This document shows positions 2 through 57,895 of a stretch of DNA of 64,000 nt, piece by piece. The notes under the pieces are model-generated. The model saw only the letters and a list, made by a program, of their open reading frames with translations. It was not told the origin of the DNA and searched no databases. A program made the position numbers and the translations under genes. The stretch is from Polaribacter sp. L3A8 (GTDB taxonomy: Bacteria; Bacteroidota; Bacteroidia; Flavobacteriales; Flavobacteriaceae): positions 744,001 to 808,000 of the forward strand of contig NZ_CP047026.1 in the NCBI RefSeq assembly GCF_009796785.1, in the 5' to 3' direction. Position 1 is the stretch's first letter. Each line of letters starts with the position of its first letter.

Positions 2-1708
2 AACACAAACTTAGGGAATTTCGATTTCTCTATGCTATTTAAAGGTAGCAATGGAGATGGGCATGACATAGAAAGTATTTTAAATACAAGATTACAGGAT
101 ATTATTGTGGTTTTTAATTGGACTGGAAAAACAAGCAAAAATTGGGCTACGTCCACTAATTGGAGTACTTCTGCAGTGCCAATTGCTACAAATAATGTTA
201 TTATTCCTAATGTTACTAATCAACCAACTATAGAATCAGGAACTACTGCTATTGTTAATAATTTAACGGTAGATGCAGCTTCTTCCCTTCAAATAGAAGG
301 TGGCGGTGATTTAACAGTAAGAGGAGATTTAACACAAAATGGAGTATTTACTATAAATTCTGATGCAACCTCTAATGGATCTTTTATTTTAGAAGGTCAT
401 CATTTAGGAACCGAAAAAGTCCTTTATAATAGATATGTTTCTTCCTCACCAACTATTTCTGAAGGGTGGTATTTAATTTCTGCTCCTGTAAGTGGTAAAA
501 ACATAGATGATTTTTATAGTGATGTAGCTACAAATGGTATTAAAAGAGGTATTGGTAGCTATATAAATACAAATCCTATAAATACAAAATGGACCTATTA
601 TACAACTGCAAATTTAAACCCGGGTTCTTTTGAACCAGGTAAGGGGTATACTATTAAAAAAGCATCTGCTGGTGCTTTAAGTTTTGATGGTTTTGTAATT
701 ACAGATTCAGTACTATATCCTGTTTATGATACCGGAGACCAATATAATGCTATTGGTAATCCATTTACTTCCTATATTAATAGTAGTACTTTTTTAGACA
801 ATGTTAGTGAAGGTATTTTAACAGAGAACACAGTTTTCTTATGGGACTCATCAGGAAACGGAGGTACAGGAGAATATATTTCAAAAAACCAAATAACAAA
901 TTATTTAGTAGCGCCAGGACAAGGTTTTTTTGTAAAAGTTTCCGCAAGCGGAACTGTTAAGTTGGCAGAAAGTTTTCAAACTCATGGTGGGGGTAACACC
1001 TTTTTAAAAAATGAAAACAAACCTAAAATCACCTTATTCTTAAAAGATGGAACTAACCAAAAATATACAGAAATCTATTATATAGATGGTAAAACAACTG
1101 GTTTTGATAATGGTTTTGATAGTTCTATGTTTGATGGGGTTCAAACAGATTTTGCTATATTTACTCAATTAGTTACTAATAATCAAGGGAAAAACTTAGC
1201 CATACAATCGTTACCAAAAGACAATTATAATACAATGGTAATTCCGATTGGGGTTAAAGCTATTTCGGGTAAAGAATTAAACTTTTCTGCAAACCTAACA
1301 AGTTTACCATCCAACCTAAAAGTATTTTTGGAAGATAGAAAAACAAATACGTTTACGAGAATTGATGAAGAAAATAGTTTTTACAAAACTACCTTATCAA
1401 AAACCTTAAACGGAATAGGAAGGTTTTATCTTCATGTAACCGAAACTGCATTAAACACAGAAACCAATGAAGACAATCTAAATATAAGCGTCTATACTCC
1501 AGATAATGCTACGCTAAAAATAACGGGCTTGCCTCAGGGAGATACAGGTTTAAAACTATACAATCTTCTTGGTAAACAATTAATGAATATCTCTTTTGAA
1601 ACTACAGGCGTAGAAACCATTACTCTACCCTATTTAGCCAAAGGAGTTTACCTTGTAATACTTAAAACGGATAAAGAAAAAATCACCAAAAAAATCTTTT
1701 TAGATTAA
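2..1708 (+). CDS. T9SS-secreted protein, C-terminal part (5' end outside window)
   Basis: The reading frame is open from the first bases of the window, so the ATG at 32 is internal and the gene begins upstream. The visible part is about 569 residues, rich in Asn, Thr, Ser and Gly, as in large flavobacterial cell-surface proteins. The last ~75 residues form a typical type A sorting domain of the type IX secretion system: ISVYTPDN, LKLYNLLGKQ, and the closing GVYLVILKTDKEKITKKIFLD pattern (read as two overlapping parts). That domain directs export across the outer membrane and is then removed. The middle part has no catalytic motif that I recognise, so its job (adhesin, enzyme accessory region or other) is unknown. 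A strong hairpin follows the stop codon. Secretion route is confident; function is not. Confidence 0.85.
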   Translation, partial: NTNLGNFDFSMLFKGSNGDGHDIESILNTRLQDIIVVFNWTGKTSKNWATSTNWSTSAVPIATNNVIIPNVTNQPTIESGTTAIVNNLTVDAASSLQIEGGGDLTVRGDLTQNGVFTINSDATSNGSFILEGHHLGTEKVLYNRYVSSSPTISEGWYLISAPVSGKNIDDFYSDVATNGIKRGIGSYINTNPINTKWTYYTTANLNPGSFEPGKGYTIKKASAGALSFDGFVITDSVLYPVYDTGDQYNAIGNPFTSYINSSTFLDNVSEGILTENTVFLWDSSGNGGTGEYISKNQITNYLVAPGQGFFVKVSASGTVKLAESFQTHGGGNTFLKNENKPKITLFLKDGTNQKYTEIYYIDGKTTGFDNGFDSSMFDGVQTDFAIFTQLVTNNQGKNLAIQSLPKDNYNTMVIPIGVKAISGKELNFSANLTSLPSNLKVFLEDRKTNTFTRIDEENSFYKTTLSKTLNGIGRFYLHVTETALNTETNEDNLNISVYTPDNATLKITGLPQGDTGLKLYNLLGKQLMNISFETTGVETITLPYLAKGVYLVILKTDKEKITKKIFLD

Positions 1709-1769: not shown

Positions 1770-2072
1770 TTGATTCTAGACTGAATAGAACCATGAATTA
1801 TATCTTAATATTTTCATCAATAAAAAAATGTTTAATTTGATTACCAAATTATAATCTACGTAAATAAATTAATTAGAAGGTTACAAAAACATAAACGTTT
1901 GGAGGAAATTTATCATTAAGAAAAGGATAGAAAATTTAGACAGAATTAAATTATGAATTAAATAAATAACGAAAGTAAAATAGCGTGTACAATTAATAAC
2001 TGACTATAAGTTACTTACAAAATACTTATGGATTTCTATTCGGTTTTTATTTACTAAATTAGGTCTTTAAAA
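1770..2072. other. Intergenic region without recognised gene
   Basis: About 300 very AT-rich bases between the terminator at 1733-1769 and the next gene. I see no further strong hairpin, repeat or convincing ORF. It presumably holds the promoter of the small membrane protein at 2073, but no clear TAnnTTTG element stands out. Confidence 0.5.
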
Positions 2073-2618
2073 ATGTTATTTACAATAAAAGTAAAAATGG
2101 AAGAAAAAATAATTACTGGTATTATAGCTCTTACAACATCCATTACTGTAAGTATTATAGCTTATTTATATGCATTAAAAAAAATTAAACACGAGAAGAG
2201 AGAAGCTTTCAAATTAAATCATTATGAAAGACAAGTTGAAGCTTATCTACAATTTTGGTGTTTGCTTCGTCCTTTTACTAATTTTGATTATTTTAATGAT
2301 ACAATTATAAAAGAAATAGAAAAAAAATCGTTTTTAAATGTAAAAAATTCCATGACTTTTTACAAAGATATTCGTGATTTTTTCTATTCAAAATATGGAA
2401 TTTTTCTAAGCAGAAAATTGAAAAACCCTCTTTTTCAACTTAGAACCTTTATACTCCATAAGTCAAAGTTTACAGAAGAAAATTTAATAGAACTCTCTAA
2501 TGAAGATTTAAAAACTATCAAGAACTATATGAGAGAAATTAGGATTATTGCTAGAAATGATATTGGTGTTAGAGATATATCGTTACCAATTGATGAATTA
2601 GATTTAATAAATGAATAG
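2073..2618 (+). CDS. Small membrane-anchored protein of unknown function
   Basis: Encodes up to 181 residues. Residues ~12-32 (IITGIIALTTSITVSIIAYL) form one hydrophobic helix near the N terminus, followed by a basic, charged cytoplasmic-type domain with many Lys, Phe and Tyr. A second ATG at codon 9 (2097, MEEKIITG) is an equally likely start and gives a more usual short N terminus before the membrane helix. I recognise no family. It stands alone: terminator upstream, 230 bp of gene-free DNA downstream, no partner on the same strand. Such orphan single-helix proteins are common in flavobacterial accessory DNA. The ORF is long for random AT-rich sequence, so it is probably real. Confidence 0.6.
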   Translation: MLFTIKVKMEEKIITGIIALTTSITVSIIAYLYALKKIKHEKREAFKLNHYERQVEAYLQFWCLLRPFTNFDYFNDTIIKEIEKKSFLNVKNSMTFYKDIRDFFYSKYGIFLSRKLKNPLFQLRTFILHKSKFTEENLIELSNEDLKTIKNYMREIRIIARNDIGVRDISLPIDELDLINE

Positions 2619-49686: not shown

Positions 49687-50511
49687 ATGAAAATTTTAAA
49701 CATTATTTTAATACTGACATTAATCTTTTCTTGTGATAAAAAAACGGCAAAGGAGCAAAAAAATAAAACAACTACAAATGAAATAGTAAATGCTAAATTT
49801 CAAAAAATCATAGACTCAAATAATATTAGTGGCGCTATTCTTATTTACGACTTAAACAAAGATCTTTTTTACGCTAATGATTTTAAATGGGCAAAAACGG
49901 GTCGCTTACCTGCTTCTACTTTTAAAATTCCGAATTCTATGATTGCCTTAGAAACAAAAGTAGTAGACAACGATAGTACTTTGTTTAAATGGAATGGTGA
50001 AAAAAGAGCTTATAAAGTATGGGAACAAGATTTAATCTTAAAAGATGCTTTTAAATATTCTTGTGTACCGTGTTATCAGGAAATAGCTAGAAAAATAAGA
50101 CAAAAAAGAATGAATGCCTATTTAGAAAAACTGAACTATCTAAATATGGATGTAAATTCTGAAAACTTAGATGTATTTTGGTTAGAAGGTGCTTCTAAAA
50201 TTAATCAATTTGAACAAATAGATTTCTTAAAACGCTTTTACAAATCGGAACTTAAAATATCAAAGAGAACTGAAGATATTATGAGAAAAATACTTTTCAT
50301 CGAAAAAAACGAAAAGTACACTTTATATGGTAAAACAGGGTTATCTGTTAGAAATAAGCAACAAAATGGTTGGTTTGTTGGTTATGCACAATCAAAAGAA
50401 AATACACTCTTTTTTGCAACCAATATATCTCCAAAAGAAACTACAGATATTAAGGGCTTCCCTAAATTAAGAAAAGAAATTACGTTGAAAGCTTTAGAAC
50501 TAATAGAATAA
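49687..50511 (+). CDS. Class D (OXA-type) beta-lactamase, lipoprotein
   Basis: 274 residues. A lipoprotein signal (IILILTLIFSCDKK, lipidated Cys16) tethers it to the membrane. All class D active-site motifs are present: S77-T-F-K80 in PASTFKIPNSMIALET, S125-C-V in KYSCVPCYQEIARKI, W165 in FWLEGASKI, K216-T-G in LYGKTGLS, and GWFVGYAQ after it. The lysine of STFK is the one carboxylated in OXA enzymes. It hydrolyses beta-lactams in the periplasm; carbapenem activity cannot be predicted. No integron, transposon or cephalosporinase context is near, so it looks like a resident chromosomal gene. Confidence 0.94.
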   Translation: MKILNIILILTLIFSCDKKTAKEQKNKTTTNEIVNAKFQKIIDSNNISGAILIYDLNKDLFYANDFKWAKTGRLPASTFKIPNSMIALETKVVDNDSTLFKWNGEKRAYKVWEQDLILKDAFKYSCVPCYQEIARKIRQKRMNAYLEKLNYLNMDVNSENLDVFWLEGASKINQFEQIDFLKRFYKSELKISKRTEDIMRKILFIEKNEKYTLYGKTGLSVRNKQQNGWFVGYAQSKENTLFFATNISPKETTDIKGFPKLRKEITLKALELIE

Positions 50512-50572: not shown

Positions 50573-50851
50573 TTATATTTCGTCTTCTAAATCATCAACA
50601 TCTAAATCTTCATCCTCGTCAAAAGAATCTTCATCTTCTGCATAATCTTCCATCGTTTGCTCTAGTTTAGAACTGATTTTAACAAGATACACAGTGTCTT
50701 CTGTCTTCACTTCTACCGCTTTTACAGTTTCTCCTTTTGCATTTTTAAAGGAAATAATGTCTTCATAGTCATATCCGTCAGGATACTTTTCTACCAACAT
50801 ATCTAATATGTCTGTAGTTAATTTTGCGTATTCTACGATTACTCTTTTCAT
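50573..50851 (-). CDS. Small acidic conserved protein at the end of the polyamine operon
   Basis: 92 residues. A compact N-terminal part (MKRVIVEYAKLTTDILDMLV, KYPDGYDYEDIISF, TVYLVKISSKLEQTM) is followed by a strongly acidic tail of Asp and Glu (~68-92). I do not recognise a characterised family; similar flavobacterial proteins are sometimes labelled DNA primase without support. It is the last gene after the deoxyhypusine synthase-like gene, 67 bp away on the same strand, and ends at a strong terminator. Confidence 0.75.
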   Translation of the reverse strand: MKRVIVEYAKLTTDILDMLVEKYPDGYDYEDIISFKNAKGETVKAVEVKTEDTVYLVKISSKLEQTMEDYAEDEDSFDEDEDLDVDDLEDEI

Positions 50852-50918: not shown

Positions 50919-51887
50919 CTACATTTCTAATAAATAAGCAAAAATTAATGGAGCTACAATAGTAGCATCACTTTCTATGATAAACTTTGGCGTATCAATA
51001 TCTAACTTACCCCAAGTAATTTTCTCATTGGGTACTGCTCCAGAATACGAACCATAACTTGTTGTAGAATCTGAAATCTGACAGAAATAACTCCAAAATG
51101 GTGTTTCTGGTTTTTCCATATCTTGATACAACATTGGCACCACACAGATAGGGAAATCTCCTGCAATTCCTCCTCCTATTTGAAAGAATCCAATTCCGTT
51201 TTCAGAATTATTTGTATACCAATCTGCAAGGAACGTCATGTACTCAATTCCAGATTTTACCGTACTTGCTTTTAACTCTCCTTTTAAAACGTAAGAAGCA
51301 AAAATATTACCCATAGTAGAATCCTCCCAACCTGGACAAATAATTGGCAAGTTTTTTTCTGCCGCTGCGTACATCCAAGAATCTTTAATATCTATCTCAT
51401 AATATTGTTCTAATACACCAGATAACAATAATTTGTACATGTATTCATGTGGTAAGTAACGCTCTCCTTTTGCTTCTGCATCTTTCCATATTTTTACAAT
51501 ATGTTCTTGAATTCTTCTAAAAGCTTCTTCTTCTGGTATGCAAGTATCTGTAACTCTGTTTAATCCTTTTTCTAGTAAATCCCACTCGTCCTGTGGGGTT
51601 AAATCTCTATAATTAGGTACACGCTTGTAATGAGAATGTGCTACAAGATTCATAACATCTTCCTCTAAGTTTGCACCTGTACAAGAAACAATTTGTACTT
51701 TATCTTTACGAATCATTTCCGCAAAAATTTTCCCTAATTCGGCAGTACTCATTGCTCCCGCTAAAGAAACTAACATTTTAGATCCTTTGTTTAATTGTGC
51801 TTCGTACCCTTTTGCAGCATCTACTAAAGCTGCAGCGTTAAAGTGTAAAAAGTATTTTTCTATAAAATTTGTAATAGGTTTGCTCAT
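50919..51887 (-). CDS. Deoxyhypusine synthase-like enzyme (possible homospermidine synthase)
   Basis: 322 residues, clearly in the deoxyhypusine synthase family: MLVSLAGAMSTAELGKIFAE, VQIVSCTGANLEEDVMNLVA, IICPGWEDSTMGNIFASYVL, GGGIAGDFPICVVPML, and the catalytic lysine in EKITWGKLDI (K294). In eukaryotes the enzyme moves the aminobutyl group of spermidine onto eIF5A; bacteria have no eIF5A, and bacterial homologues are thought to make homospermidine or related polyamines. It sits in one operon with arginine decarboxylase and agmatinase, which make putrescine, so a polyamine product is the natural inference. Confidence 0.9.
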   Translation of the reverse strand: MSKPITNFIEKYFLHFNAAALVDAAKGYEAQLNKGSKMLVSLAGAMSTAELGKIFAEMIRKDKVQIVSCTGANLEEDVMNLVAHSHYKRVPNYRDLTPQDEWDLLEKGLNRVTDTCIPEEEAFRRIQEHIVKIWKDAEAKGERYLPHEYMYKLLLSGVLEQYYEIDIKDSWMYAAAEKNLPIICPGWEDSTMGNIFASYVLKGELKASTVKSGIEYMTFLADWYTNNSENGIGFFQIGGGIAGDFPICVVPMLYQDMEKPETPFWSYFCQISDSTTSYGSYSGAVPNEKITWGKLDIDTPKFIIESDATIVAPLIFAYLLEM

Positions 51888-54432: not shown

Positions 54433-55824
54433 TTAGTACCCTAAAATAGATAGCATTTCGCTACTTTTTTGCTGCTCTTTAAATATTTTTGTGGTGATGT
54501 TTCCGGCTTCATCTCTATCTATAATGAGATGTTTTGGATGCGGAATTAAGCAGTGCTGTAACCCACCAAAACCACCAACAGATTCTTGATACGCTCCTGT
54601 ATTAAAAAAACCGATATACAACGGATTTTCTTTTTCGAACACAGGTAAATATATTCCGTTTATGTGTTGTTCAGAATTGTAATAATCATCACTATCACAA
54701 GTTAAACCACCTAATAAAACACGTTCATATTGTTTATTCCATTTATTAATTGGCAACATAATAAAACGTTTATTAATTGCCCAAGCATCTGGTAAAGTAG
54801 TTATAAATGAAGAGTTTATCATGTTCCAACGTTCTCTATCATTTTGTTTCTTTTGATATAAAATCTCGTAAATTGCTGCACCAGATTCTCCTACTGTAAA
54901 GCTCCCGAATTCTGTAAAAATATGAGGAACATCTACTTCTGCTTCATCACAGGCTTGTTTTATTTGGTTGATAATTTCATCAATCATATATTGATAATCA
55001 TAATCGAAAGCCAATGAGTTTTTTATAGGAAAACCACCACCTATATTTAAGCTATCTAAAGTTGGGCATACTTTTTTAAGGTTGATGTAAACTCTTAAAC
55101 ACTTCATCAATTCATTCCAATAATATGCGTTGTCTTTGATACCTGTATTGATAAAAAAATGTAGCATTTTTAAATCAACTTGTTTGTTACCAGCTATTTC
55201 ACGCTCATAAAAAGCAACAATATTTTTATACCCAATACCTAATCTAGAGGTATAAAACTCAAATTTAGGCTCTTCTTCGGATGCGATTCTAATACCTACA
55301 TTTATTTTTTTATCTGTTTCATCTAATAAAAGATTAATTTCTTCGAAATTATCTATAATCGGAATTACGTTTTTATGTCCAGAATTAATTAAGCCTCCAA
55401 TATTTTTAATGTATTGATCGCGTTTAAATCCATTACAAATAACATATGTATTATCTTTTATTTTGCCTTCTTTTTTAAGCTTATTTACAATATCAATATC
55501 AAAAGCAGAAGACGTTTCTATATGAATATCATTTTTTAGAGCCTCATATAAAATATGTTTAAAATGAGAGCTTTTTGTACAATAGCTATAAAAGTACTTT
55601 CCTTTATAGTTATGTTTATCGATACTTTCTTGAAACCAACCTTTTGCTTTGTTGATGTTTTCTGAAATTTTTGGTAAGTATGTAAATTTTAATGGAGAAC
55701 CATATTGCTCTATTAATTCCATTAAATTAATTCCGTGCCAAAACAATTTGTTATTTTCTGTTTTGAATTCTTCCTGTGGAAAATCGAACGTTTGCTCGAC
55801 TAAATCTATATATTTTGTATTCAC
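54433..55824 (-). CDS. speA: Arginine decarboxylase, PLP fold type III
   Basis: 463 residues with a GTG start (GTG AAT ACA at 55824). The PLP lysine is in YFYSYCTKSSHFKH (K84), and the C-terminal cysteine motif is in LLGGLTCDSDDYYNSEQ. FGSFTVGESGAAIYE and LNIGGGFPIKNS are further fold III signs. It is the short Bacteroidota type of biosynthetic arginine decarboxylase, which turns arginine to agmatine. First gene of a five-gene polyamine operon; about 280 nt of 5' leader with structure lie upstream (55862-56105). PLP enzyme class is certain, arginine is inferred from agmatinase next door. Confidence 0.9.
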   Translation of the reverse strand: MNTKYIDLVEQTFDFPQEEFKTENNKLFWHGINLMELIEQYGSPLKFTYLPKISENINKAKGWFQESIDKHNYKGKYFYSYCTKSSHFKHILYEALKNDIHIETSSAFDIDIVNKLKKEGKIKDNTYVICNGFKRDQYIKNIGGLINSGHKNVIPIIDNFEEINLLLDETDKKINVGIRIASEEEPKFEFYTSRLGIGYKNIVAFYEREIAGNKQVDLKMLHFFINTGIKDNAYYWNELMKCLRVYINLKKVCPTLDSLNIGGGFPIKNSLAFDYDYQYMIDEIINQIKQACDEAEVDVPHIFTEFGSFTVGESGAAIYEILYQKKQNDRERWNMINSSFITTLPDAWAINKRFIMLPINKWNKQYERVLLGGLTCDSDDYYNSEQHINGIYLPVFEKENPLYIGFFNTGAYQESVGGFGGLQHCLIPHPKHLIIDRDEAGNITTKIFKEQQKSSEMLSILGY

Positions 55825-55904
55825 TTTTGCTTTTAAATTAACTGTATGATAAATATGTCTAAGCTAAAACAAAAAAACTGTTTTAGAATAGAAATTATAA
55901 CCTT

Positions 55905-55951
55905 AAAAAAAAAAAGATGTTATCACTGTAATATTTGCAAGTAAACAACAT
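55905..55951 (-). terminator. Terminator-like hairpin inside the speA leader
   Basis: On the minus strand atgttgtt(t)act pairs with agtgataacat around a 12-nt loop (55917-55951), with wobble pairs and one bulge, and is followed directly by a run of eleven T (55905-55915). It is 80 nt upstream of the speA start, with no gene in front of it except the possible 54-codon ORF, so it would act as an attenuator. Confidence 0.6.
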
Positions 55952-56087
55952 GCAACTTTGAGAAAAGCTGCAATTCTGGAAGAATTGAAAATGGAGATAC
56001 CTTAATTTTTTCGTTGCATTTCCAAAATGCGATATAACTTTCATTCTCCGATAGAAAGATATTTCCGAAATAAGAAAAACTATACAT
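55923..56087 (-). CDS. Possible 54-codon leader ORF upstream of speA
   Basis: An ATG at 56087 opens a frame MYSFSYFGNIFLSENESYIA, then FWKCNEKIKVSPFSILPELQ, ending LFSKLHVVYLQILQ. Its stop codon falls within the 3' arm of the terminator-like hairpin. It has no arginine codon. It has no signal peptide or family I recognise. Translation through the leader would affect the hairpins, so it could be a leader peptide; equally the open frame may be a by-product of a conserved RNA. Confidence 0.25.
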   Translation of the reverse strand: MYSFSYFGNIFLSENESYIAFWKCNEKIKVSPFSILPELQLFSKLHVVYLQILQ

Positions 56088-56106
56088 TTTACTTAAATAA
56101 GTTAAG

Positions 56107-56114
56107 CAAATGTA
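56107..56114 (-). promoter_or_regulatory. -7 promoter element of the speA leader
   Basis: TACATTTG on the minus strand is a perfect TAnnTTTG match, with TTTTG about 22 bp upstream as a possible -33 box. The rest of the gap to 56280 is about 83% A+T and shows no other signal. Confidence 0.55.
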
Positions 56115-56280
56115 TATTATTTTTGAATATAAAAAACAAAAGTCAAAAAAAAATGAAATTATTTTTTTTCCTTATAAACAGTGATTTTATAGAGGTTTAT
56201 ATCTAAAAAATAAAGATAAATTTTAAAATAAACGTTGAAACACAAAATTTTTATTACCAAAAAACACTTTTTCACCCATA

Positions 56281-56309
56281 AAAAAAGTGCTGATTATTCA
56301 GCACTTTTT
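56281..56309 (-). terminator. Terminator of the helicase gene
   Basis: Stem aaaaagtgctga/tcagcacttttt with loop ttat, 12 nt after the helicase stop codon; T-rich on the minus strand side. Confidence 0.88.
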
Positions 56310-56320
56310 ATTTTTATATT

Positions 56321-57895
56321 TTATTCTTCAATTGGTGGATGACCATGAATTTCTTCGTAATCTTCATCAAAATTAGATCTTAAATAAGCATTTAATTTCT
56401 TTCTATAATCGTCTTTTAACCAGGTTACAAAATTGTGTGTACTTTTAGAAATACATTTGGCGTATCTATTAATTCTATCATCAATTTCTTCTCCTAGTAA
56501 TTTAGCTAAAATTAGTGCATCAAAAACGTCTTCACTATTTTCTATACACATTTTTGCATGATGTACAATCGATTTTTCTAGTACCCTTTTAGAAGATTCT
56601 CCTTGCCTAATGGTATCTATATATACTTTTTTCATATCGAAATAAGTATCGGTAGATTTTTCGAACTCTTTTTTAACATCCGCAGTTAACTCATATCTAA
56701 AGGTGCTTTCTATATCTTCATCAGAAAGAATTGCATTTAAATAATAGTCTGGTGCTCTAAACATTTTTTCCCAGTCTAAATCTGCTCCCCAAGGGCCAAA
56801 TCTATGAAAATTGTTTCCTAAGTCAATTACATCAAAAGTGCTTTTATCGCTTAAAACCCTAGAACCACGACCAATCATTTGGTAGTATAAGGTTAACGAT
56901 TTTGTTGCTCTATTTAAAATAATTGCTTCAATAGTTGGCTCATCAAAACCTGTTGTTAAAATACTAACTGAGGTAATAATTGCACCTGGTGTTTTATGAA
57001 ACCATTTTAAAATAAGCTCACGCTCACTTCTTGTATTTGTATTGTCTAAATGCGCAATAGGATATCCTGCTTTTTTAAAGGCATGAAACACTTGTATAGA
57101 GGTGTTAATACCATTATTAAAAATTAAGGTTTTCTTTCCTTTTGCAGTTTCTTCATATGCCGAAACCAATTTAGAAAGCATGTCTGAATTGGTATATAAA
57201 TCTTCTGAAGATTTTACCGTATAATCTCCATTTGCTCCTACTTCTAAAGATGTTAAACCAACGTTATAAGAATATAAGTTTGCGCTTGCTAAATACTCAT
57301 TATCAATTAAATGCTGAATTGTTTCTCCAACAAATAATTCTTGATAATTCTCATACATTGGTAATTTAATGTTAGAACTTAAAGGAGTTGCAGTAACACC
57401 AAGTATAAAAGATTCATCAAAAAATTTAAAGATTTTTGTAAATGAATTATAATGCGCCTCATCCACAATTACCAAACCAATATCAGAAATATCTAGTTTA
57501 TCATCATTCAACCTATTTTTTAAGGTTTCAACCATTGCCACAAAACAATTAAAATCATCTTGATCGTCTAATACTGCTGTAGAATTGATGATCTTATTAG
57601 AAACACCAAACTCTTTTAACATTCTAGAGGTTTGCTTACTCAACTCAATTCTATGCGTTAAAACTAAAACTTTCTTTTTAAAAGTTTCTAAGTAACGTCT
57701 TACAATTTCAGAAAAAATTACTGTTTTCCCACCCCCTGTTGGTAATTGATACAATAGATGATAATCTTTGGGCGCATCCTCAAACCTTCTAAAAATCTCT
57801 TGAAGAGCATCTTTTTGATATCCGTATAATTCCTTACCTACTTTTTTTACTGAAGTGTTTATTTCTGCCAAACGATTAAAAATTTTAAAAGACAA
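56321..57895 (-). CDS. DEAD/DEAH-box helicase (SSL2-like, superfamily 2)
   Basis: 524 residues. Q-like LYGYQKDALQEIFRRF, motif I QLPTGGGKTVIFSEI, motif Ia VLTHRIELSKQ, motif II IVDEAHYNSF (DEAH), motif III GVTATPLSS, motif V TTGFDEP, motif VI YYQMIGRGSRVL. The C-terminal ~150 residues are helical and end in an acidic tail. ATP-dependent DNA or RNA helicase of unknown process, widely conserved in Bacteroidota. Located 36 bp after the ytxJ gene on the same strand. Confidence 0.93.
   Translation of the reverse strand: MSFKIFNRLAEINTSVKKVGKELYGYQKDALQEIFRRFEDAPKDYHLLYQLPTGGGKTVIFSEIVRRYLETFKKKVLVLTHRIELSKQTSRMLKEFGVSNKIINSTAVLDDQDDFNCFVAMVETLKNRLNDDKLDISDIGLVIVDEAHYNSFTKIFKFFDESFILGVTATPLSSNIKLPMYENYQELFVGETIQHLIDNEYLASANLYSYNVGLTSLEVGANGDYTVKSSEDLYTNSDMLSKLVSAYEETAKGKKTLIFNNGINTSIQVFHAFKKAGYPIAHLDNTNTRSERELILKWFHKTPGAIITSVSILTTGFDEPTIEAIILNRATKSLTLYYQMIGRGSRVLSDKSTFDVIDLGNNFHRFGPWGADLDWEKMFRAPDYYLNAILSDEDIESTFRYELTADVKKEFEKSTDTYFDMKKVYIDTIRQGESSKRVLEKSIVHHAKMCIENSEDVFDALILAKLLGEEIDDRINRYAKCISKSTHNFVTWLKDDYRKKLNAYLRSNFDEDYEEIHGHPPIEE

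Follow-up and report, generated by a model that had tools for sequence, protein, structure and literature searches.

A conserved leader peptide upstream of speA in Flavobacteriaceae, overlapping a pseudoknotted RNA: a candidate ribosome-arrest switch

The leader of the arginine decarboxylase gene speA in Polaribacter sp. L3A8 probably encodes a regulatory peptide of about 54 residues, which would arrest the ribosome at its UGA stop codon and thus open speA. Comparison of the leaders of relatives shows a conserved protein-coding upstream ORF (uORF), conserved above all at its C-terminus, mostly closed by UGA and ending about 50–180 nt before speA; the arrest, its effector and the direction of control we infer. 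An earlier note on this DNA had read the region as a conserved leader that regulates, in cis, the polyamine operon behind it; this proposal is supported by the results presented here.

The leader peptide and its conservation

The window analysed is a 64,000-nt stretch of the Polaribacter sp. L3A8 genome. The controlled gene speA (54433–55824, minus strand, with a GTG start codon at 55824) carries the arginine decarboxylase domain PF02784, and the NCBIfam speA models match its product below their curated cut-offs. On the same strand follow an arginase/agmatinase-family gene (PF00491; 53439–54398), a gene combining GNAT and carbon-nitrogen hydrolase domains (PF00583 and PF00795; 51897–53429), a deoxyhypusine-synthase-like gene (PF01916, NCBIfam models below cut-offs; 50919–51887), which is possibly a homospermidine synthase gene, and the gene of a 92-residue protein (50573–50851), the last of the cluster, for which a Pfam and NCBIfam search yielded no NCBIfam family and no credible Pfam match. 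Strand and spacing suggest that the polyamine genes, from speA to the gene of the 92-residue protein, form one operon. An ORF on the plus strand (49687–50511) is lipoprotein-like and has STFK and KTG motifs, by which we take it to resemble a class D beta-lactamase or a penicillin-binding sensor. Upstream of the speA promoter, a strong hairpin, AAAAAGTGCTGA-ATAA-TCAGCACTTTTTTT (56280–56309, minus strand), stands 3' of the upstream gene (56321–57895), presumably helicase-like by its motifs; the hairpin is likely a terminator that isolates the speA promoter.

The promoter element TACATTTG read in the earlier note is present at 56114–56107 on the minus strand, 283 nt before the speA GTG, which agrees with the leader of about 280 nt given there. 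The element is of the TAnnTTTG type, which we take to be the Bacteroidota promoter -7 element, and lies 19 nt before the ATG (56087) of an unannotated uORF (55923–56087, minus strand). This open reading frame encodes the 54-codon leader peptide MYSFSYFGNIFLSENESYIAFWKCNEKIKVSPFSILPELQLFSKLHVVYLQILQ, which ends in ..YLQILQ, contains no arginine codon and matched no Pfam or NCBIfam family. Its UGA stop codon (55925–55923) is followed by UAA, and 98 nt separate its end from the speA start. The leader core had been taken for a conserved RNA element, with a GC content of about 32% against about 17% on both sides. It is indeed conserved, but the coding region at 56087–55923 had been overlooked, and the GC contrast, although real, is smaller (0.29 for 55923–56098 against 0.18 on each side, with speA likewise at 0.29); the higher GC content of the core is explained by 55923–56087 being coding sequence. 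A near-perfect palindrome, TATACATTT..AAATGTATA (56081–56116), spans the promoter and the uORF start; it was set aside as an element, most relatives lacking it when inspected by eye.

The leaders compared came from two sources: the genus itself, in which 58 genomes were searched, 36 gave a match and 30 of these were used, and a set of 80 named loci, the best 80 of 574, which belong mostly to Flavobacteriaceae, Polaribacter being nearest. A uORF ending before speA was found in 100 of these 110 leaders and was absent from view in ten (L054, L059, L062, L070, L072, L082, L088, L092, L099 and L101), L062 having a 40-codon ORF that ends in TIMI instead of the typical uORF. The peptides are mostly 53–58 residues long, and codons 1–32 keep a single register across clades, except in rows with one-codon indels; the Lutibacter-type rows L078, L105, L109 and L111 were left out of the uORF alignment.

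From codon 33 to the end, pS was 0.519, pN 0.159 and dN/dS 0.20, calculated over 647 pairs of equal-length uORFs that differ at 3–22% of bases and are not independent of one another. Because the same stretch gave dN/dS values of 1.56 and 1.74 in the shifted frames, we conclude from these ratios that the C-terminal half of the uORF is selected as protein. Codons 7–32 showed few changes of either kind (pS 0.158, dN/dS 0.51), as expected if a second constraint acted there on the bases.

Among 172 distinct peptides from 176 uORFs, 165 have I, F or L in third-last place and 116 have R or Q in the penultimate place; 137 terminate in I or V and 27 in Q. The uORFs of the Polaribacter group, that of the window included, are the exception and end in Q rather than I or V (29 of the 176 uORFs). 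Of the 66 named-locus uORFs, 40 have the ending [ILF][RQ][IV]-stop, against none of the 428 ORFs of at least 200 codons that were listed mechanically from the background loci; it closes 136 of 205 uORFs, 29 of which (Flavobacterium-like) carry it by construction. UGA is the stop codon of 129 of the 172 distinct peptides and of 161 of the 205 uORFs, and at the named loci it ends 46 of 66 uORFs against 21 of 336 long ORFs (70% against 6%), a large contrast that recurs in a second clade and for which a p-value is not meaningful, since the rows are related. The middle of the peptide is able to change completely while the C-terminal end is kept, and protein conservation strongest at the C-terminus is a trait of arrest peptides acting at termination that this family shares. 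A TAnnTTTG element stands less than 45 nt from the uORF start in 39 of 96 leaders, 19–26 nt 5' of it.

Classical attenuation, in which pausing at leader arginine codons would sense charged tRNA-Arg, could appeal to the arginine residues present in the leader peptides of many relatives and to Salmonella orf34, which works in this way with two arginine codons according to the excerpts of PMC6386406 used here. We find this explanation scarcely credible for the speA leader, because the window peptide holds no arginine codon and hence no run of regulated codons; across the 172 peptides, moreover, R takes the penultimate place in 67 and gives way to Q or L in 78.

The peptide extends to a Flavobacterium-like genus, in which speA was found in 61 of 61 genomes and whose listed genomes gave no match to the covariance model of the RNA described below. 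A uORF with a looser C-terminal pattern is present in 30 of 31 Flavobacterium-like leaders, the exception being L254, and also in L304 and L305, two leaders beyond the 31. These uORFs end 48–71 nt before speA and measure about 57–61 codons from the promoter-nearest ATG; the N-terminal halves of their peptides are often unrelated, and the peptides mostly end in ..L-x-I-x-[YF]-A-N-[IL]-R-V. Twenty-nine of them were selected by ..RV before the stop codon, so that the C-terminal motif is no test in this set, while the stop codon, the promoter and the substitution ratios do count as tests: UGA ends 28 of the 29 uORFs against 2 of 92 long ORFs in the same loci, pN/pS is 0.18 over the last 12 codons against 0.65 over the preceding 20, and TAnnTTTG is found 4–7 nt 5' of the ATG in all 29 leaders. 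With the promoter element so close to the ATG, the Flavobacterium-like mRNA is expected to begin almost directly with the uORF and thus to be nearly leaderless.

In other families, the looser pattern was found in one of 26 leaders of a class sample, 13 of which had their speA start placed only approximately; this leader (L281) contains a 30-codon ORF that ends in YQLRI-UGA and extends from 150 to 57 nt before speA. One of the 22 non-family leaders listed from an order sample (L306) has a 36-codon ORF ending in MFRV, with a UAA stop codon 168 nt before speA. Both ORFs are within chance expectation, and that of L281 is possibly either a product of chance or the same switch outside the family.

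The uORF might also make a stable small protein that acts in trans, such as an antizyme-like inhibitor of SpeA. A conserved open frame of conserved length, mostly 53–58 residues, with a promoter element close 5' of it would suit such a protein. It is nevertheless a very unlikely explanation: the Flavobacterium-like peptides keep their last dozen residues above N-terminal halves that are often unrelated, 96 of the 101 copies of the RNA element are fixed before speA, and neither the UGA bias nor the pairing of the stop region has a place in this model.

A covarying RNA inside the reading frame

The 5' half of the window's uORF coincides with a structured RNA element (55992–56070, minus strand), delineated by covariation and covariance-model matches and consisting of a three-way junction of helices P1, P2 and P3 with a loop-tail pseudoknot. 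The 5' strand of P1 (56065–56069) has its partner at about 56013–56009, in a register shifted by one in Polaribacter. The P2 hairpin (56032–56064) bears in its loop the 5' pseudoknot strand GGAGA (56049–56045), which pairs with the 3' strand TCTCC (55993–55997), and P3 (56016–56030) is the hairpin GCATTT-tgg-AAATGC; all of these helices, too, are on the minus strand and rest on covariation. Counted from the first base of the uORF, the helices comprise positions 19–23/75–79 (P1), 24–32/48–56 (P2), 58–62/68–72 (P3) and 38–43/91–96 (pseudoknot). Two hairpins had been described in the upstream part of the leader in the earlier note; hairpin material is present there, but the conserved structure at 56070–55992 is a different one.

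Across 66 sequences less than 92% identical, standard pairs occupy 88.9% of cells against 67.4% after shuffling, changes on both sides occur in 21 of 25 pairs, and the covariation score is 0.554 against 0.190 (sd 0.009) after shuffling and at most 0.224 with the partners slid; the structure was proposed by eye and then counted on the same sequences, and eight divergent rows (L076, L110, L087, L067, L085, L097, L084 and L032) were left out by hand, both of which favour it. Both-side changes are found in 9 of 9 counted pairs of P2, in 5 of 5 of P3 and in 5 of 6 pairs of the pseudoknot, 96.7% of whose cells are paired, while P1 is the weakest helix (79.4% of cells paired, both-side changes in 2 of 5 pairs). 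Default RNAalifold applied to 33 sequences found the pseudoknot helix alone, because a nested prediction cannot hold both sets of helices, and for the same reason the full structure was proposed by eye. The minimum-energy fold of the window's element is the same three-way junction, at an energy z of -0.05, and the 211-nt leader folds no better than its shuffles (z -0.85, 33 of 200 as good); we relied on covariation because folding energy is uninformative for the leader and the element alike.

Against a tree-simulated null for 90 rows, from which the one-codon-indel rows L013, L021, L026 and L098 were omitted, a choice that favours the structure, the outer pseudoknot pair (38,96) ranked best of about 7,000 pairs and was the only pair individually beyond all 40 simulations; the ten best pairs comprise six of the counted structure, one that is its apical pair and three outside. 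The pseudoknot pairs had been omitted from the covariance model, so that the rows found with this model provide a further test. In 79 further rows, less than 97% identical to any earlier row and compared position by position without realignment, the pseudoknot is 98.3% paired against 95.1% (sd 0.3, maximum 96.4% of 500) with the 3' parts exchanged, in a register that is the best of 16 tried and also the expected one, the model having scored the letters of the pseudoknot columns and not their pairing. An extra helix between the 5' end (-15 to -4) and positions 82–91 also found support, scoring 10.22 against 8.90 in exchanged combinations (sd 0.21, highest 9.48), although its register differs between clades.

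The earlier note had let its reading stand or fall with conservation and covariation upstream of speA orthologues; this comparison was made, and the covariation is strong. Its statement that no known riboswitch class was recognisable agrees with an Rfam cmscan of the window, in which no family reached its gathering score and nothing below it was credible (the best over the element was SAR11_0636, with 20.5 bits against 67); in 20 related loci the scan matched 5S rRNA and tRNA only. Flavo-1, which is present in Rfam, is set apart from the speA leader because no Rfam family matched here.

In 199 genomes of the family, nearly every one from a different genus, the covariance model gave 101 matches to the element, spread over 99 genomes. 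In a phylum sample, searched with strict filters that lose weak matches, it occurred in 7 of 296 genomes, all seven of the same family. We found speA in 134 of the 199 family genomes and speA together with the element in 97, and 96 of the 101 matches lie 57–262 nt (median 144) before speA on the same strand. The model match is missing in 37 of the 134 speA genomes. Among 32 such leaders, an unfiltered search gave E <0.003 in four; nine have an ORF with the [ILF][RQ][IV] ending, seven of these with UGA, and 23 are without one.

Five matches are exceptions, one of which, in G234, lies at a contig end. Outside these five, an additional match in G008 proved to lie within a different gene and was discarded. 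The copy in G125 (L192) is separated from speA by two genes, and at this locus (689–859 and 2005–2126, minus strand) a detached element with its own uORF occurs alongside a separate uORF, ending in ..NVYLELRV, directly before speA. In G084 (L204), which has no speA match, the element precedes a gene for 92 residues that resembles the last gene of the window's cluster by eye (1022–1300, minus strand); because this look-alike adjoins the element in a genome without a speA match, the 92-residue protein may be part of polyamine physiology. Second element copies in G243 and G173 precede proteins of about 100 residues that are similar to each other by eye, and the second copy in G173 (L156) has kept the RNA and lost the frame. 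Proteins of about 100–123 residues in L155 (2284–2586), L156 (2653–2994) and L204 (1764–2135, all minus strand) look alike by eye and share ..DG.E.G.YYF.. and ..GK.FKVTY..; two of them follow second element copies, and those of L155 and L156 matched no Pfam or NCBIfam family.

The leader contains a conserved, covarying, aptamer-like fold of the sort that a riboswitch has, which may bind a ligand. Control that is mainly riboswitch-based would have the junction and pseudoknot bind a polyamine, arginine or agmatine and would reduce the ORF to an expression platform, its translation switched on or off and its peptide sensing nothing. The strong covariation of so compact a junction and pseudoknot speaks for it, as do the suppression of synonymous change in codons 7–32 (pS 0.158 against 0.519 from codon 33 to the end) and the second copy in L156, in which the RNA persists with a broken frame. 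We consider it unlikely all the same, because a pure riboswitch has no need of the constraint on the C-terminal protein sequence and the stop codon, and because the C-terminal peptide and UGA are retained in the Flavobacterium-like leaders, which gave no model match. A tentative possibility is that one stretch of mRNA serves at the same time as a pseudoknotted RNA that senses a metabolite and as the coding sequence for an arrest peptide. Polyamine supply would then be read twice, by the RNA, whose fold would gate the entry of ribosomes into the uORF or their crossing of it, and by the nascent chain held at UGA; the peptide layer would be the wider one, reaching the Flavobacterium-like leaders, and the RNA layer would be a lineage-specific addition or would have been lost there.

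The stop codon and the proposed switch

In the minimum-energy fold of the window, UGAUAA at the end of the uORF (55925–55920) pairs with UUAUCA (55852–55847), 22 nt before the speA start. This post-stop structure (55847–55925, minus strand; -13.5 kcal/mol, z -1.99) encloses two hairpins, the first of which holds nine of eleven consecutive U in its loop. One Flavobacterium-like example (L265), folded from the UGA on, gave a z of -2.82.

Complementarity between the stop region and the region before speA was tested against 300 exchanges of the 3' parts within groups sorted by C-terminal pattern. It exceeded the exchanges in the Flavobacterium-like group (16.39 against 13.07, sd 0.54, highest 14.71, n=28) and in a remainder that mixes clades and is largely Winogradskyella-like (15.41 against 13.46, sd 0.41, highest 14.54, n=39), was marginal in the Muricauda/Kordia-like group (14.39 against 12.44, sd 0.60, highest 14.54, n=14) and in Polaribacter (15.09 against 14.13, sd 0.37, highest 15.13, n=27), and was unsupported in the Tenacibaculum-like group (17.06 against 16.28, sd 0.90, n=8); UGA was written as the stop codon for every row, a few Winogradskyella-like rows were sorted into the FRI/IIRI group, and such mixing of groups can inflate the contrast.

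In the same region, the earlier note had seen a hairpin directly followed by eleven U and a 7-nt segment complementary to one bordering the terminator stem, and had proposed premature termination under the control of arginine, agmatine or a polyamine. Hairpin material and the T11 run (55915–55905) do exist in the window, and the 7-nt complement is perfect (ATGCAAC, 56019–56013, with GTTGCAT, 55956–55950), most of the hairpin material and the 7-nt pair being situated inside the coding sequence. However, T11 is not common to the Polaribacter group: within 30 nt after the stop codon it is the longest T run of all, the other 28 leaders having runs of 3 to 8, and most of it is looped out in the predicted fold. 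The 7-nt pair is perfect in just 6 of the 29 Polaribacter-group leaders. A conserved hairpin followed by a U-run was found neither among these leaders nor in the fold of the window. The intrinsic terminator, together with the 7-nt pair as its antiterminator, was rejected on this lack of conservation, and we give an intrinsic-terminator leader responding to arginine, agmatine or a polyamine very little credence.

We favour arrest of the ribosome by the leader peptide. Counting against it are the Q ending of the Polaribacter group, a post-stop pairing that is marginal there and in the Muricauda/Kordia-like group and unsupported in the Tenacibaculum-like group, the 37 speA genomes without a model match, and the 23 of 32 leaders from such genomes that show no ORF with the typical ending. 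UGA is read by RF2, and the finished peptide, still attached to its tRNA, would block release at this RF2 step in response to an effector that belongs to arginine or polyamine metabolism. Stalled at UGA, the ribosome would cover the 5' strand of the post-stop structure, which would leave the speA initiation region free or keep Rho off; without arrest, the post-stop structure would form and speA would be silent. The pseudoknotted RNA in the 5' half of the uORF, carried by about half of the sampled family genomes, would add a second layer of control, most likely by determining if ribosomes get across the uORF, or at what speed. It probably tunes translation of the uORF, and it is probably dispensable for the core mechanism, because the Flavobacterium-like leaders gave no model match.

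Relation to known systems

Leader peptides of polyamine genes are documented in gamma-proteobacteria, where translation of SpeFL and MdtU couples ornithine and spermidine, respectively, to gene expression in enterobacteria (excerpts of PMC6386406 and PMC7815308). Among the matches listed from the open-access literature, we found no report of a leader peptide or RNA before speA in Bacteroidota. If our proposal is true, this family, which is abundant in the sea and in fresh water, controls polyamine synthesis with a leader-peptide switch of its own; the switch differs from SpeFL and MdtU in both length and ending, and a pseudoknot is encoded in the same bases. Because RNA and peptide overlap, one could ask directly what an RNA fold and a nascent chain do to the same ribosome, and UGA preceded by R/Q-I/V would provide a defined substrate with which to study blocked RF2 action outside the E. 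coli ribosome.

A transcriptome study of Flavobacterium psychrophilum, a member of the same family, describes leader-peptide attenuation at amino-acid operons as well as 64 structured 5' regions; the excerpts of PMC9723704 name six conserved cis-regulatory RNAs, at pheA, hisG, ftsY, acsA, alaS and rimP, not at speA, and Table S7 of that paper might list the speA leader. The 5' UTR of E. coli speA, a gene of the same function, undergoes premature Rho termination, and the excerpts of PMC7815308 report no comparable uORF or structure in it.

SpeFL/orf34 of gamma-proteobacteria is likewise a small uORF before a decarboxylase gene of polyamine synthesis, in this case speF; ribosomes arrest or pause at its stop codon, the RNA refolds and Rho takes part in the control (excerpts of PMC6386406, PMC8429421 and PMC7815308). 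SpeFL/orf34 has 34 codons with consecutive arginine codons and responds to ornithine, RF1-mediated release being blocked. The leader described here, in contrast, has about 54 codons, a UGA stop codon (RF2) and no arginine in the window peptide; it precedes speA, has another C-terminus, belongs to another phylum and contains a pseudoknotted RNA inside its frame.

MdtU, from the mdtJI leader of E. coli, shares with it a uORF shortly before the main gene, the stop codon lying 106 nt upstream, and conservation that is highest at the C-terminus; it is needed for spermidine induction, and Rho is involved. It differs in that it controls a spermidine exporter and has 34 codons, and the excerpts of PMC7815308, from which these statements are taken, report no embedded covarying pseudoknot. 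TnaC, in the tnaAB leader of E. coli, shares the UGA stop codon, at which it arrests by blocking RF2; its last two residues, Arg23 and Pro24, are proposed to obstruct the GGQ loop of RF2, and the arrest keeps Rho away (excerpts of PMC8429421). TnaC differs in having 24 residues and a C-terminal proline and in sensing tryptophan, and no sequence likeness between it and the window's peptide family was seen by eye. The defining sequence features of TnaC, SpeFL and MdtU that were tested are lacking in the speA leader, which is for that reason a member of none of these three groups; by analogy, it would nevertheless work like them.
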